NCBI GenBank assembly: GCA_021157815.1
Contig: JAGGVT010000123.1
Span: 1-16,352, forward strand
Direction: 5' to 3'
DNA: 16,352 bases
DNA from: a bacterium
Lineage (GTDB): Bacteria > JAJVIF01 > JAGGVT01
Part shown: piece after piece, positions 4,566-12,595 of the stretch
Layout: each line of letters starts with the position of its first letter
How positions within the stretch are numbered: position 1 is the stretch's first letter
Position numbers and translations under genes: made by a program
The notes under the pieces: generated by a model
Database searches by the model: none
What the model was told of the DNA's origin: nothing
What the model saw: the letters and a program-made list of their open reading frames with translations, nothing else

Positions 4566-5575
4566 ATGGACTGGATAAGCCGCCGCGGCCTGCTTGATAG
4601 ATCAGTAAAGGTAATCGGCGGATTGTCTCTGGGCATGATTCTCTTTTCCGGTTCATCCAGGGCGTACGCTGATGTTGACTTGATTGATGATGGTGAAAAA
4701 ACTAAAACATCCCCAAAAACAAAAAAGGTCAAAACGACAAATAATAAGAAGAAGAGCCTTGTTGTTAAAATAACAAACAGGAAAGCGGTTGATTCATCCG
4801 GTTCAGGCAAAGAGTGCGCTGTTTTTGACATGATAACCAAAGGCATCAGAGAATTGACAGGTGAAAAGGATGATTCCAAAACATGGCAAACAATGGCATC
4901 GGAGGGTCAGCGTGTGGGAATAAAAGTAAATTGTATAGCTGGACGAAACATGTCAACTCAGGTGCCGGTTGTAATGGCGATTATCGAGGGATTGAAATCA
5001 GCCGGAGTAAGGGAGCGGGATTTACATTATCCACTGGTACAAATTCACTGCGCTGTCATTGAACTAAAAGTTATGAGCCAGTGGCTAACAATATCAACGG
5101 TACGAAATTTAAGCTATCGACAATTCTTACTAATGAAATCGATGTTCTAATCAATGTGCCTGTGATGAAAAATCACGGATACGCCGGTGTTACTCTTTCT
5201 TTGAAAAACCACTAAGGCTCACACAATAATCCGGGAGATCATCACGGAAATAATTGCGATCCTGATATCGCGAATATCTGTTCACATGATGACATCCACA
5301 AAAAGACAAAACTAATCGTGTTGGATGCCCTTCGAGCGCAATGCAATGGCGGCCCAAGCTACAAGCCTAAATTCAAGTGGAATCCGGGAATAACACTCAT
5401 GAGCAGGGACAGTGTTGCAATTGACCGAATCGGGGGCGAAATCATTGATGCTCGACGAATTGAAACTAATATCAAACCTCTGGGAAACTCGCATCGGCAT
5501 ATCATTACAGCCGCGGCCCTTGGGCTGGTAATCGCTGATAGAAACATGATTGAAGTCAAAAATGTAGTGGTTTAA
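4566..5575 (+). pseudogene. Broken Tat-exported DUF362 family gene
   Basis: The first frame (from 4566) starts with a twin-arginine signal, SRRGLLDRS at residues 5-13, a hydrophobic core and AYA at 34-36, then a Lys/Thr-rich linker and the DUF362-like stretch VGIKVNCIAGRNMSTQVPVV (117-136). After Asp152 (about 5021) homology moves to another frame: FTLSTGTNS, then INVPVMKNHGYAGVTLSLKN and LDALRAQCNGG up to the stop at 5573-5575. The second frame is interrupted by TGA at 5060-5062 and TAA at 5213-5215; the TAA falls where the family normally has KNHYG, so a Tyr codon became a stop. A short segment seems lost at the frameshift. In intact form it would be a periplasmic protein of unknown reaction. 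No good ribosome binding site precedes 4566. Confidence 0.85.
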
Positions 5576-5620: not shown

Positions 5621-5627
5621 AAAGGAG
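5621..5627 (+). promoter_or_regulatory. Ribosome binding site fixing the start of the first S55-like gene
   Basis: AAAGGAG lies 6 nt before the ATG at 5634. It decides between this start and the upstream TTG at 5604, and places the signal peptide at the very N-terminus. Confidence 0.75.
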
Positions 5628-5633
5628 CATCGG

Positions 5634-7349
5634 ATGCGTCAGGTCCTTTTAATACTGATGATATTCAGCGCATTTATGTTGTCCGGTTCATCATCAATGG
5701 TGATGGCAGAAACCGATGTTCAAAAATACCTTTCCACGAATGAAATCCGTCCCGGCATGAGAGGTTACGGACTAACCACACTTAATGGAAATGAGATAAT
5801 GCAATATCCAATCATAGTTTTATCGGTTATGGGAAATCGTGGAGGCACAATTCCTAACTACAAGAGCATTCTCATTAAGTTGGATGATGATGGTGAATTC
5901 CCGGACGGTTGGGTCGGTTTTCAAGATGATATGGCTGGCTCGCCTGTTTATATAAATAACAAGCTTATAGGCGCGGTATATTCCTTTTCTGAATGGTCAA
6001 GACAGGAAATCGCTCAGGTTAGGCCAATTGAGGAGATGCAGCTTATCGCTGAACGCCATGGAAACATCAATAAAACAGAACGCTCGTTAGAGCGCAGAAC
6101 TCTACTCGAAACTTCCAAAGAGAGTTCAAATACTGCATCAGGCGTTTCAGTTGAAACTTCACCTTTTAGTAATAATAATGAAAAAGCAGATAACATTAGA
6201 GCTCTTTTGCCCGGCGACGCTGTAGCTGCTGTCTGGGCAATCGGTGATTACACACAAATTGAAAAGGGAAATGTAACCGAGGTAACCGATGGAAACGGGT
6301 TCTATGCTTTTGGAAAAAGCGTATTTGGCCGTGTTGGATTAATTAACGCCCCATTGATTCGATTAGACGTGCTTAACACAATTAAGGGATTCAACCGAAA
6401 TTTCCAGATTGCGAATCCCGGCTTGATTGTTGGCACCATTCAGGAAGACAGAGCATCAGGAGTTTACGGGCAACTTGGCGAAAAACCCCAACTTTTAGAA
6501 GTGGAGTCCATAATTCACGATGTCCTCTACGGTAAAGTTTATGAGGCGTTCACACTGGTTATCAATGACGAAAAGTTTTATCCGCAACTTGTTCCAGCAG
6601 CGGTTTCACATTCTATAAGCAAGCATCTGGATGTAAGTTGGGAGGGAACAATTGACCTTTCCTTTGAGATTACATTCACGGTTGACAGTGGCGCGGTTAA
6701 GACATGGGGCGCGAGAAACATTTTCTACGGTGACAAAATAACATCGCTTGCTTTAAACGACCTTACTAAAGCGTTGAACACCCTCGCTGAAAATGATTTT
6801 GGGAAAGTGCAAATCGACAAAATAAGCGTGGAAGTATTCTGGACTCCCTTAAGAGAAACCGCGCGAATTGAATCACTTGAAATAGCTGACTGCGATGGCC
6901 TTTGGAAAAAAGATGAAAGGTATGTATTGAAAAGAGGGGAGGAAATTACGCTCAAAGTTGCGATTCTTCCATACAAACGGGAATTAATCGAGCAGAATAT
7001 TACGTTTAAAATTGATGAAAAATTCCCAAAGGGCGATGCCGTGATTCAGGTTAGAGGTGGAGGCTCGTTGCTTCCAAAACCAAATGATATTTCAAAAGAG
7101 GCATTGAAAAAAATAGAGGAGAACATAAACGGCAGAACAAGGATTCTGGAGCCAGCGCCGCCAAAAGGCCTTGAAAGCCTTCTGTCAGGCATGGCGTTTC
7201 TTGTGCCATCGAATAGAAGAATTGTTGAATTAATCTCAACTGAAAAAACACCTGCTCGTGGAGTGGACAGGTTTAATCAGACAGATAACGCTGATATGGA
7301 TTTTGTCATTTACGGTTTCGATTCAATCCTTGTGAAAATCAAGGACTAG
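5634..7349 (+). CDS. Secreted S55 (SpoIVB-like) family protein lacking both catalytic residues
   Basis: A 571-aa exported protein. The ATG at 5634 has a strong AAAGGAG site (5621-5627) 6 nt upstream; the frame is open to a TTG at 5604, but that adds non-signal residues. Residues 1-25 form a Sec signal peptide (cleavage likely after VMA). Features of S55-domain proteins follow: RPGMRGYGLTTLNGN, then DDMAGSPVYINNKLIGAVYS (about 98-117), QVRPIEEM, GNVTEVTDGNGFYAFGKSVF and IANPGLIVGTIQEDRASG. Aligned with the downstream paralog, the catalytic Ser of GMSGSP is Ala101 and the His of GFGHSM is Lys228. It is therefore probably a pseudo-protease with a binding, scaffolding or regulatory role. The C-terminal half is beta-rich, with no recognised domain. 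It follows the DUF362 pseudogene by 58 nt. Confidence 0.85.
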   Translation: MRQVLLILMIFSAFMLSGSSSMVMAETDVQKYLSTNEIRPGMRGYGLTTLNGNEIMQYPIIVLSVMGNRGGTIPNYKSILIKLDDDGEFPDGWVGFQDDMAGSPVYINNKLIGAVYSFSEWSRQEIAQVRPIEEMQLIAERHGNINKTERSLERRTLLETSKESSNTASGVSVETSPFSNNNEKADNIRALLPGDAVAAVWAIGDYTQIEKGNVTEVTDGNGFYAFGKSVFGRVGLINAPLIRLDVLNTIKGFNRNFQIANPGLIVGTIQEDRASGVYGQLGEKPQLLEVESIIHDVLYGKVYEAFTLVINDEKFYPQLVPAAVSHSISKHLDVSWEGTIDLSFEITFTVDSGAVKTWGARNIFYGDKITSLALNDLTKALNTLAENDFGKVQIDKISVEVFWTPLRETARIESLEIADCDGLWKKDERYVLKRGEEITLKVAILPYKRELIEQNITFKIDEKFPKGDAVIQVRGGGSLLPKPNDISKEALKKIEENINGRTRILEPAPPKGLESLLSGMAFLVPSNRRIVELISTEKTPARGVDRFNQTDNADMDFVIYGFDSILVKIKD

Positions 7350-7395
7350 CATGAAAAAAAAATATCATTTACTATTTACACAAAGGGAAATTAGA

Positions 7396-7605
7396 TGTAG
7401 CCCGGTTTCTCATGAAAGTGTCTCAGAACTCAATTTTAAGCAAAAAGGTTTGTCATTCTGAGCGCAGCGAAGAATCTATTTGCTACTGTGTTGATGATTA
7501 AACCTGATGAAATTAATCTACACTATCTAAAATAGATTCTTCGCTTCGCTCAGGATGACAGAAAAAGCCAGGTTCTGAGACAGATTCATAAGAAACCGGG
7601 CTGCA
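7396..7605. repeat. 210-bp nested palindromic element (two concentric inverted repeats)
   Basis: The outer arms, 7396-7430 and 7571-7605, are imperfect 35-bp reverse complements (shared AGCCCGGTTTCT and TGTCTCAGAAC). The inner arms, 7451-7481 and 7530-7560, match at 29 of 31 positions and carry the widespread TGTCATTCTGAGCG...AGCGAAGAATCT repeat. Both pairs are centred on the same point, so the whole segment can fold into one long cruciform or hairpin. It accounts for most of the 317-nt gap between the two S55-like genes; the rest is AT-rich with nothing visible. No ORF and no clear target-site duplication. It could end transcription from the first gene. Confidence 0.85.
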
Positions 7606-7678
7606 ATAAAATGAGTTTTTTCAGAGGTATCGTTATTTCAAAAGATGCAATTTTACATAGCACATCATGGAGTTTGAT

Positions 7679-9613
7679 TTGAAAGACACACTGAGATTAA
7701 TTTCATATAGTTTAATCATTTGGATCTCGTTGTCGGGAATGCTTTTTTCAATGCCGAATCCGGACCGTTTCGAATTTATATTCATGGATGAGCTGGAAAG
7801 TGGAATGAGGGGAGAAGCTCTTACTGTCATTGATGGAGCAAAAATCGAATCATTCACAGTTGAACTTATTGGATTGGCAAGGGATTCAGGTTTCGACAAT
7901 CGCGATTTCCTGCTTTGCCGTATGTCAGGCGATGTAATCGAAAGGTCGGGTGGAATCGCGGGTGGAATGAGCGGAAGTCCGGTTTACTTTTCCGGACGCC
8001 TTGCCGGAGCGGTAAGTGGGCATTGGAGTTTCACCGACCAGACTATTGGAATTGTAACTCCTATTGAATATATGCTTGAGGAGATAGATTACATTAAATC
8101 GGACATGAATTCCCGCAACAATCAAACCGATGAAACAGCATGGAAAAAGAGAAACAGCTCATCGAAAGCCATGGCGCTTCGGGAAATTAAAATCGTGTCC
8201 TCTTCGAATTTAATCCCCACAGGCAACGACAACGTTTTTGTCAGCGCGTCAACGCCTTTCTATATTTCAGGCATTGATGAGGAAGATCTTGAGCTTATCA
8301 AGCCCATTCTAAACGAGACAGGAAACAATGAACTATTCATTGTTCCTATTAGATATCCGCCCAATGTCAAAGTTCTAAAGGAATTCTCTCCGGGATGTGT
8401 GGTGTCTGTGCCTCTTTCAAGAGGTGATATATCGTATGGAGGATACGGTACGATTACATGGGTAAGTGATGATGGGAAATATTTCCTTGGATTCGGACAT
8501 TCAATGGGACGGCGAGGCCCTTGTGAAATACCGGTTGGAAATGGATACATCTACGGCATGTTGAGAAGCAAGTATCGATCAACCAAACTTGGTGTCGCGC
8601 TTGATCCCATCGGAATGGTGCTTCAGGACAGAGGCGACGCCATAGCCGGAATTATCGGCGATGTGCCATCCTATATCCCTGTGAAAGTCAGCACTCTCGG
8701 TTCCACTTTCAAGGACAGAATTACAATGCGAAGCGAAGTGATTCCATCCTGGGATGAATATCCAAAAGTGGCTACTTCTGTTGTTACCGCATCGATTTCA
8801 CGATGCCTTGATGGTGATACAAATGGTACGCTTAATGTAAATACAACTGTTAAACTGAAAATAAACGATGAAACAAAGTGGTTCACGCGTGATGACATAT
8901 ATTCCGGGAATAACATTATCGCCCAGTATCGGGATGGCCTTCAGCAAATTCTTCTGCGAATAAGGGAAACCGATATGGATTACATAACGCTTGAATACAT
9001 TGACGTTACCGCTGAATACAGGCCCGACAGGCACGAAGCCCGTATTGAGGGATTTGAAATTTTATCAATCGAAGAAATAAAAAGCAGAGCGGATGACAAG
9101 AATCATGCTAACGACTATCATGAGGATGCATTTGATGATACGTCCAACTACACAAATCCCAAGCTGGATGAGGACAATCCGCAGAAGTATATTCTTAAAT
9201 CCGGTTCGCTTTATCTTGCCGCGGTGAATCTCGTGAACTATCGAGCTCCAAGGGAAATAGTTTATATTCCATTCTATTTGCCTGATGCTTTTGAGGAAAG
9301 CAAAGGCCGGATTACAATCAGAAATGGAGCTGGTGAGATGCCATCCGCTAATGTAGTCGGATCTGATGTGAACACCTATATCAGCAAATGGAAAAAAGAA
9401 CCCGGTCATGAATCGATTGATGATATCGACACGATTGAAAACTATCTCGAGAACCTTTTCGAATCAAACCGGGGTAATGTTTTGATATTTGAGGTTATAA
9501 GCGACAAGCATGACTCCTCTAATAATATTGAGAATACTATGGTTAGAATTGAAATCGAGCGCGAGGGAGCTCTGAAGGGTATTTGGGAAAGTGAATTGAA
9601 ATTCGAGAAGTGA
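7679..9613 (+). CDS. Secreted S55 (SpoIVB-like) family serine peptidase, catalytic residues intact
   Basis: A 644-aa exported protein (648 if begun at the ATG at 7667). I prefer the TTG at 7679, because GGAG (7669-7672) sits 6 nt before it while nothing precedes the ATG; it starts directly with a signal-like LKDTLRLISYSLIIWISLSG segment. Numbering from the ATG: LESGMRGEALTVIDG at 43-57; GGIAGGMSGSPVYFSG at 95-110 with candidate nucleophile Ser102; IGIVTPIEYM at 127-136; and GTITWVSDDGKYFLGFGHSM at 261-280 with candidate His278. The latter aligns with the GTIT...GALGH segment of Bacillus SpoIVB. The C-terminal 300 residues are acidic and unrecognised. The substrate is unknown; SpoIVB cleaves SpoIVFA and SpoIIQ in sporulation, but no sporulation gene is here. 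It ends 1 nt from the convergent nadE stop. Confidence 0.85.
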   Translation: MKDTLRLISYSLIIWISLSGMLFSMPNPDRFEFIFMDELESGMRGEALTVIDGAKIESFTVELIGLARDSGFDNRDFLLCRMSGDVIERSGGIAGGMSGSPVYFSGRLAGAVSGHWSFTDQTIGIVTPIEYMLEEIDYIKSDMNSRNNQTDETAWKKRNSSSKAMALREIKIVSSSNLIPTGNDNVFVSASTPFYISGIDEEDLELIKPILNETGNNELFIVPIRYPPNVKVLKEFSPGCVVSVPLSRGDISYGGYGTITWVSDDGKYFLGFGHSMGRRGPCEIPVGNGYIYGMLRSKYRSTKLGVALDPIGMVLQDRGDAIAGIIGDVPSYIPVKVSTLGSTFKDRITMRSEVIPSWDEYPKVATSVVTASISRCLDGDTNGTLNVNTTVKLKINDETKWFTRDDIYSGNNIIAQYRDGLQQILLRIRETDMDYITLEYIDVTAEYRPDRHEARIEGFEILSIEEIKSRADDKNHANDYHEDAFDDTSNYTNPKLDEDNPQKYILKSGSLYLAAVNLVNYRAPREIVYIPFYLPDAFEESKGRITIRNGAGEMPSANVVGSDVNTYISKWKKEPGHESIDDIDTIENYLENLFESNRGNVLIFEVISDKHDSSNNIENTMVRIEIEREGALKGIWESELKFEK

Positions 9614-10561: not shown

Positions 10562-12595
10562 ATGAGATTTGCCAAGTTCATAACCATTTTCGCTTTAATC
10601 GTATTCGCGTTGTCGTGCTCGTCAAGTGATTCATCGCAAATAAATGAAACTGATGAAATCAAACCAATTGAATTAACTCAAAAGGAAAAACAACTTCTTA
10701 GACTGGAAAAAACAATGCATTATCTTGTCATTTATGGTGAGGAAGTTGATGATGAACTGATACAGGGCATTCTTCTTGAGTATCTTGATAATGGCACTGG
10801 TTTTGGAATATTTGGCGATTACTGCTTTGATCTTGAAGTTGGCAATATGCCTCCTGATTTGTGCCGTAAGTTTACGATTGGTTTAATTGAAGGCAATTGG
10901 AGTGCCGAATTCAAGGACGCTGTTTTAGTAGGTAGAAATCCGGTTGGCACCATGAAAGTTGTCATTTTTCTTTATCGATCACTGGAAAGCGATTATCCTG
11001 ATCTTGCGAAGCAATTTCTCGATCATTTTTTAGACCTTATCAACCAAATAGAAATTCCCATTTCCAGAGCTTTTGGAAGCATTATCAGCTATAAATACCT
11101 TTATTTAGCTGGTTTCAGCGGGATGAAGATTAAGATGCTTGATGCCGTTCAGCTTCTAATGGATATAATAAGCAAAGGTGAAGATAAAATAACTCCTGTT
11201 GGCATGATTAACCAGGTTGCTGAAATTGCCAGTGTCGATTATGAAACCGCTATGATGCTCGCCCAAACCTTTTTTGATGATGAGTATTATCTCGTAGAAA
11301 GCAAAGCGGCGATTGCAGGCGGGTTGATGAAATCCGATTATGAACATGGGCTTCAATTATATTTGGAAGCGGTTGAAGAAATTGTTAAACTCGATTATAA
11401 CCCGGAAGCGAGAAAGCATATACCTTTTGAATTCGCTTACACTAATCTGCGTGAGGAAGATAAGAAAAAATATGCAAAAAAGCATTTCGATGTAATGAAT
11501 CACTACAAAAGAGTTGAGATTATGCCCCCGCTTGAAAAATTTCAGTTGAAATCAAGCGAGCCTGTTTTGCCATCATGGTTTAGAGATCAGCTGTTCGAAT
11601 GGATAAACAGTAAATTTGATTATCCGGTTAGAATTGAATCGGTTCAGAAAAAACTTATTGAACACTGTTCCCGGTATCCTAAATCACATAATACGGAAAT
11701 CTACATTGGTTGGCTGCTTGACTGGATTGAAAAACTTGATTCACCGTTTGAGAAATATATTTATCTTGGAAGGCTTCTTACAACCGCAAACGCTGTGATT
11801 CCAGATAATATTTCGATTGCAAAACCGAAATTTGACAGAATAATCAACAGTTTCAAAACCAAACTTCCCGACTTGGATTTGGAGGATTCACTACTCGGTG
11901 TTTTATTTTTCGAGGAACCCGGCCAGTTTAAAAACAATCTTGGTGATGGCAGTATAATTGCCGATAACAATGAGTTCATTACCAGCTTTATCGGAGTTAT
12001 GCAGTACCGCCACTATTTCCATCCTGACAACGACGCCGGTTTGGGTGAAATAATAACTGAACTTGCTGAGAACACTGAAAGATCGAATTTGAAAGAGGAT
12101 TTTGATATCTATAAAAATCTTGCCGCTATGTGGGCTGGATGGGATGACGACAGAGCATGGGAAATGATTGAATCGCTTGACAGGTCTAATGGTGAATTCC
12201 CAAAATCACTGATTATCGTGGCAATCGTAACTAAACCATACGCGCCTGGTTTTGCGGCAAGATGTATCGATGATTTGATGGAAAGCTATTCCAATTGGGA
12301 ATTCAACCTCTCAAATCCAAATTTGGAAACAAATCTTGTTAGTTCCCTTTCCATGATATCAATCCAGTGGGCTGAACAGCTTGCGGATGTCATCATTGAG
12401 CATCGCGGAGAAACTGATCCGGCGTTTTCTTTCTACAATCTAAGAGCTGATATTCTTAGAAGTGCATTCGACTTGAATGCTGGAAAAGATGAACTTGCGC
12501 GGATAACATACGACATCCAAAATAAGTTGAGAGTTGATTTCAATTTGGAAAGTGATTATAACGATGATGATGTTAACCTTAAAGAGGATTCCTGA
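10562..12595 (+). CDS. Large lipoprotein-like protein of unknown function
   Basis: A 677-aa protein that I do not recognise. AAGGTGG (10548-10554) lies 7 nt before the ATG. The N-terminus MRFAKFITIFALIVFALSCS has a positive start, a hydrophobic core and Cys19 preceded by ALS, a near-lipobox (the usual Leu at -3 is Ala), followed by a Ser-rich linker. It is thus probably an envelope lipoprotein, possibly only secreted. The remainder (about 40-660) looks almost wholly alpha-helical with many acidic residues and few glycines, as in solenoid repeat proteins (HEAT/TPR-like), but I cannot define a repeat unit. No catalytic motif is visible. It is divergent from nadE and ends immediately before the convergent 69-aa gene. 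Confidence 0.8.
   Translation: MRFAKFITIFALIVFALSCSSSDSSQINETDEIKPIELTQKEKQLLRLEKTMHYLVIYGEEVDDELIQGILLEYLDNGTGFGIFGDYCFDLEVGNMPPDLCRKFTIGLIEGNWSAEFKDAVLVGRNPVGTMKVVIFLYRSLESDYPDLAKQFLDHFLDLINQIEIPISRAFGSIISYKYLYLAGFSGMKIKMLDAVQLLMDIISKGEDKITPVGMINQVAEIASVDYETAMMLAQTFFDDEYYLVESKAAIAGGLMKSDYEHGLQLYLEAVEEIVKLDYNPEARKHIPFEFAYTNLREEDKKKYAKKHFDVMNHYKRVEIMPPLEKFQLKSSEPVLPSWFRDQLFEWINSKFDYPVRIESVQKKLIEHCSRYPKSHNTEIYIGWLLDWIEKLDSPFEKYIYLGRLLTTANAVIPDNISIAKPKFDRIINSFKTKLPDLDLEDSLLGVLFFEEPGQFKNNLGDGSIIADNNEFITSFIGVMQYRHYFHPDNDAGLGEIITELAENTERSNLKEDFDIYKNLAAMWAGWDDDRAWEMIESLDRSNGEFPKSLIIVAIVTKPYAPGFAARCIDDLMESYSNWEFNLSNPNLETNLVSSLSMISIQWAEQLADVIIEHRGETDPAFSFYNLRADILRSAFDLNAGKDELARITYDIQNKLRVDFNLESDYNDDDVNLKEDS

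Follow-up and report, generated by a model that had tools for sequence, protein, structure and literature searches.

A probable non-cutting paralog beside an intact protease in an apparently circularly permuted SpoIVB-like family

The locus and its two genes

The DNA analysed here (contig JAGGVT010000123.1 of assembly GCA_021157815.1; its 16,352 nucleotides are referred to as the window) carries two genes, 317 bp apart on the same strand, whose products are related to the spore-signalling serine protease SpoIVB (MEROPS family S55). An initial annotation, made from the letters of this DNA alone, had described them as tandem paralogs, the first catalytically dead and the second intact. This is confirmed here, since BLASTP aligned the two proteins nearly end to end (23% identity, E=4e-25) and the catalytic Ser and His were missing from the upstream copy only; the two genes are old paralogs, whose synonymous sites are saturated at this identity. 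The upstream gene (5634-7349, forward strand) encodes a predicted exported pseudoprotease of 571 amino acids with the motifs DMAGSPVY (Ala101) and AFGKSV (Lys228), and the downstream gene (7667-9613, forward strand) a predicted serine protease of 648 amino acids with GMSGSPVY (Ser102) and GFGHSM (His278), both as intact open reading frames and both numbered correctly in that annotation. The unbroken frame of 571 codons, the ribosome binding site and the signal peptide that it reported are likewise all visible, the second as a Shine-Dalgarno-like AAAGGAG (5621-5627, forward strand) read 6 nt 5' of the upstream ATG, and the third as the Sec signal peptide MRQVLLILMIFSAFMLSGSSSMVMA (5634-5708, forward strand), with a predicted cleavage after VMA and a helix over residues 2-17 in the AlphaFold2 model. 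The models of both proteins, built with 60 family sequences, were of similar confidence, with a predicted local distance difference test score of 84.9 for the upstream copy and 83.2 for the downstream copy, and a predicted template-modelling score of 0.82 for each. According to its model, the downstream protein begins with a hydrophobic helix that may be retained as a membrane anchor.

Order of the catalytic halves

The PF05580 (Peptidase_S55) profile matches both proteins only by its C-terminal half (positions 104-210, approximately), and this match is placed N-terminally. In the downstream protein, profile positions 116-210 fell on residues 41-137 with 46.1 bits against a cut-off of 25, whereas the match of the upstream copy (profile positions 115-190) reached 22.6 bits, just under that cut-off. 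The half bearing the Ser comes first and the half bearing the His second, which is the reverse of the SpoIVB order and was missed in the initial annotation. The same half-match arrangement was present in about 90 of 385 sampled genomes spread over the bacteria (loci L062-L141 and L170-L249); a full-length SpoIVB match was found in only 2 of the genomes, both from a phylum with SpoIVB in nearly every sampled genome. When the family was compared by profile with 27 SpoIVB proteins, its first part paired with the Ser half (E=3e-23) and its later part with the His half (E=2e-5), with no crosswise matches. The His-half match was moderate (probability 70-77%) and superposed a GT-T strand, the (L/F)GH motif, a Lys and the following GI-G strand. 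Because this comparison pairs the parts of the family with the SpoIVB halves in reversed order, we consider that, on sequence grounds, these proteins constitute a circularly permuted S55-like family outside SpoIVB proper. The earlier assignment to S55 thus holds in part: the downstream copy passes the PF05580 cut-off and has both the catalytic Ser and the catalytic His of S55; however, the halves are permuted in both proteins, and the upstream copy stays below the cut-off and has neither residue. Nothing relevant to a permuted S55 protease or to a circularly permuted chymotrypsin fold came up in the literature searched, although such a description may have been published elsewhere.

A search of the PDB with the family profile gave SpoIVB (9LNF) as the sole match (E=8e-12). 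The window proteins share with SpoIVB the GMSGSP and (L/F)GH motifs, Ser102 corresponding to S378 and His278 to H236, and the Lys307 of the family aligns near a Lys that is invariant in SpoIVB too. In contrast to SpoIVB (PF05580, TIGR02860), their halves are reversed, they bear a long C-terminal module, and the upstream copy is without Ser and His. No PDZ domain was matched in a Pfam scan of the window proteins, a scan that a diverged PDZ could escape, and both proteins remained far from the TIGR02860 equivalog cut-off (51.2 and 20.8 bits vs 305). Structural aligners that follow chain order matched the Ser barrel alone, a result to be expected for a permutation and hence no proof of it. Their top matches were barrels of the HtrA/Deg proteases DegP, DegQ and DegS (Z 8.7 and 8.9 over about 100 residues), in which the first barrel of both models corresponds to the second, Ser-bearing one; unlike the window proteins, HtrA/Deg proteases are not permuted and have PDZ domains, and sequence identity to them is low. 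Another protein of interest is Vpar_0521 of Veillonella parvula, a non-sporulating diderm, which has been described in its outer-membrane proteome with an N-terminal SpoIVB domain plus DUF1090 (PMC5491611). The part of that description available to us resembles the present case in its N-terminal SpoIVB match, and does not mention a His half, a permutation or a dead paralog (PMC5491611). Veillonella relatives are present in the permuted family (L190 and L233). A chymotrypsin-fold protease that is circularly permuted in nature, common across bacteria and in many genomes located beside envelope genes, would point to a role of the SpoIVB domain outside sporulation, and we regard this family with its envelope-gene contexts as a more valuable outcome than the dead copy itself.

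Three residues, Ser102, His278 and Asp321 (downstream numbering; codons 7970-7972, 8498-8500 and 8627-8629, forward strand), are invariant in the permuted family. The first two are the predicted nucleophile and general base, on the basis of the family alignment and the profile comparison with SpoIVB, and the Asp, a predicted third triad residue, lies 43-44 residues past the His in all homologs measured. The corresponding spacing in chymotrypsin, from His57 to Asp102, is 45 residues. Asp321 aligns with SpoIVB Asn290 (numbered by counting from H236), an Asn that is invariant in the 27 SpoIVB proteins. SpoIVB Asp363, formerly named as the triad acid, is separated from His236 by about 24 angstrom in the crystal structure (PMC12502668). 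This Asp363 is without a conserved counterpart in the permuted family. Since Asp321 is invariant at near-chymotrypsin spacing and Asp363 is both far and unconserved, the alignment supports a position like that of Asp102 as the third triad residue, and the invariant Asp of the permuted family bears on the disputed SpoIVB triad.

Loss of active-site residues

We then considered how exceptional the upstream copy is in an alignment of 186 family sequences, which includes relatives from other bacteria and in which 80 loci had been found by a pattern requiring [SA]GSP and the remainder through PF05580 or the whole-family profile. Counts refer to rows covering each site, fragments without it being left aside. 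The column of Ser102 contained Ser in 181 rows, Ala in one (the upstream copy; Ala101, GCT, 5934-5936) and Pro in one misaligned fragment, and that of His278 contained His in 181 and Lys only in the upstream copy (Lys228, AAA, 6315-6317). Beyond what had been annotated, the oxyanion-hole Gly (Gly100, chymotrypsin Gly193 position), present in 182 other sequences, was replaced by Asp (Asp99, 5928-5930), and the invariant Asp was kept (Asp272, GAC, 6447-6449, equivalent to Asp321; Asp in 182 of 182 readable rows, upstream copy included); these four codons lie on the forward strand. At two more positions the upstream copy departs from the common residue, with Asn instead of the Thr262 found in 181 rows, and Gln at Lys307, which is Lys in 178. 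Where both sites are readable, it was the sole row without Ser and His. The residues taken as catalytic in the initial annotation were therefore correctly named, being family-invariant and aligned to S378 and H236 of SpoIVB, and their loss is confined to the upstream copy in this alignment. The signature of the permuted family, that is, GxSGSP, (F/Y)GH and an Asp 43-44 residues on, was found in the downstream copy and about 180 homologs, whereas the upstream copy retains from it GSP and the Asp, without the Ser and the His.

These losses cluster at the active site. In 179 other homologs, 29 columns are conserved at a level of 93% or more; all 29 are kept by the downstream copy, 28 by a third paralog of the same genome (on contig C54) and 22 by the upstream copy. 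When Ser195, His57, Gly193 and Asp102 were named in advance from chymotrypsin, three of the four were among the seven lost of the 29 (P=0.034). Most structural Gly and Pro positions and both conserved Asp are retained. The upstream copy thus combines missing active-site residues with a kept fold, as in a pseudoprotease; the fold, which the annotation also held to be conserved, is known by prediction only, from a confident AlphaFold2 model. Judging from the alignment, the substitutions are not chance variation.

An assembly or sequencing artefact that made the Ala and Lys codons might be suspected, since this is a draft genome in 221 contigs and the frame of a neighbouring DUF362 gene is disrupted. 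We find it hardly credible, because no fewer than two bases must change to turn His into Lys (CAY to AAR), and the catalytic halves deviate at five conserved positions at once while the frame is otherwise open. Alternatively, the upstream protein could be an enzyme of altered chemistry, for example with Lys228 as a base acting with the conserved Ser103 (Ser104 in the family). The Lys occupies exactly the position of the His, and Ser103 and Asp272 remain in place; however, Ser104 is also conserved in the intact enzymes, where it has therefore another role, the oxyanion Gly has become Asp, and no homolog in the alignment shows such an arrangement, so that this alternative appears very unlikely.

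Constraint and function of the upstream gene

We believe that the product of the upstream gene is an exported, folded and catalytically dead member of the permuted SpoIVB-like family, which most likely tunes its downstream paralog without cutting; we would give this reading a probability of about 0.5. It would probably be a retained non-cutting helper, and we infer its loss of activity, its retention by selection, its periplasmic location and its action through the neighbour. The upstream copy would go back to an active gene, most simply the ancestor of the neighbour, that was duplicated long ago. Nucleophile, base and oxyanion-hole Gly would then have disappeared from it, together with two more conserved residues in these catalytic halves, whereas its two-barrel scaffold and C-terminal module remained. 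The protein might bind a substrate or a protease surface, and in this way tune the downstream paralog in the periplasm or present substrate to it. A precedent for such regulation of an intact neighbour could be the pair MamO/MamE, where a dead paralog of chymotrypsin fold and an active one also occur in one gene region and MamO activates MamE non-catalytically (PMC4794232). By analogy, regulation of the neighbour would be the leading mechanism, even though MamO and MamE belong to the HtrA family and are not permuted, and MamO, a metal-binding protein, includes a TauE domain (PMC4794232). A dead copy that is unique among about 180 homologs would make a clean case for a scaffold function without catalysis.

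Past constraint on the gene was evaluated by a neutral simulation of the upstream reading frame with substitutions only, in which the first stop appeared at a median of 0.011 changes per site (95% point, 0.046). The divergence of the upstream branch, 2.3-2.6 amino-acid changes per site, far exceeds this distance, and the gene has therefore been constrained for most of its history, though not necessarily since catalysis was lost. No ortholog of it was found in the three other examined genomes of the phylum, by the whole-family profile in 385 genomes (at most three candidates scored per genome) or by a scan of 84,980 genomes with 8-residue peptides. The one viral contig with an exact DNA match encoded no relative (tblastn E=0.48). 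The lack of a known ortholog would fit an early decay, in which catalysis was lost recently, the gene has no role and its frame is as yet unbroken, as would the frame changes and in-frame stop (or assembly errors) in the adjacent DUF362-type gene (4566-5575, with a leader of twin-arginine translocation type) and the insertion of a repeat downstream of the upstream gene. We consider this rather unlikely, since the seven changed conserved positions cluster at the active site and spare the scaffold, the frame of 571 codons is intact, as are the ribosome binding site and the signal peptide, and a neutral drift long enough for these changes would be expected to bring stops.

The main rival is a stand-alone, repurposed pseudoprotease that binds a ligand, a peptide or an envelope protein in its own right, with no action on the downstream protease. 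In the family tree, both window copies sit on very long end branches, which agrees with this possibility, as do the linker between the catalytic halves, shortened to 59 residues in the upstream copy from a family median of 103, the mobile-type repeat that separates the two genes and the presence of another intact paralog. The latter, on contig C54 and absent from the initial annotation, is catalytically intact; in the tree it falls together with the sole copy of each of the three other genomes of the phylum, and it looks like the standard copy. On the other hand, the upstream gene is adjacent to its intact paralog on the same strand, and the best tree unites the two window copies (12 log units better; approximately unbiased test, p-AU 0.81, not rejected), which may be sisters. 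A stand-alone role appears possible to us but less probable than control of the neighbour.

Several observations weigh against the preferred reading of a non-cutting helper of the downstream protease. As no ortholog dates the constraint to a time after the loss of the active site, the upstream gene may still have encoded an active enzyme in the recent past. In codon usage and three-base periodicity the gene resembles its neighbours, with an in-frame score of 0.185 vs 0.170 for the downstream gene; however, fragments of the broken DUF362 gene come close to this (0.125-0.151), and the coding score alone is not decisive for this reason. The broken state of the adjacent gene also shows that genes in this region do decay. 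The sister relation of the window copies leans on long branches that may have been drawn together, and the copies are only 23% identical. Finally, the two genes do not now form a tight operon, and a shared transcript is not assured, because they are separated by a high-copy palindromic repeat of 212 bp (7395-7606), which resembles a miniature inverted-repeat transposable element, with inverted repeats 7396-7429/7572-7605 nested with 7451-7495/7516-7560, and has at least 40 copies in the genome, about ten of them at 90% identity or more.

Genomic context

The genes around the pair in the window, named partly by reading of their sequences, are ligA, a pyridoxal phosphate-dependent sulfur-amino-acid enzyme, DUF362, nadE, a lipoprotein, a zinc-ribbon protein, an Xaa-Pro aminopeptidase-like protein and metG, and they give no functional hint. 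One of the products of this region, a lipoprotein-like protein of 677 amino acids (10562-12595), had no Pfam or NCBIfam match.

The family at large is more informative. Directly after the permuted protease and on the same strand, 67 of about 160 loci carry a gene for an exported beta-propeller protein, about 700 residues long and with an immunoglobulin-like C-terminal part (for example L128:212-2383, minus strand, L215 and L239), which is likely a functional partner of the protease. In about 25 loci, mostly of Negativicutes with some of other lineages, the protease gene is directly followed by mlaE, mlaF, mlaD and tolC-like genes (L171, L172, L173, L188, L190, L216 and L233 are among them), and the family is borne by organisms that we take to belong largely to diderm lineages. 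A Veillonella operon mlaEFD-tolC-tamB has been described (PMC10665443). Because of these beta-propeller and mla-tolC contexts, an envelope role of the permuted family is likely, and kinship would suggest the same for the pair in the window. The window genome encodes an MlaD protein; a single distant query detected no beta-propeller partner in it, which is weak evidence of absence. Only tentatively can a broader proposal be put forward, in which permuted SpoIVB-like proteases are widespread and act in the envelope of diderms, together with a beta-propeller partner or next to an Mla-type lipid transporter, and this lineage has added a dedicated pseudoprotease that controls the active copy; taken as a whole, we hold it to be doubtful.

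In the three other genomes of the phylum (L124, L074 and L090), the single permuted protease gene is followed by a gene for a lipoprotein-like alpha/beta-hydrolase. Two permuted proteases also occur side by side at one other locus (L118, genome G187), and there Ser and His are intact in both.

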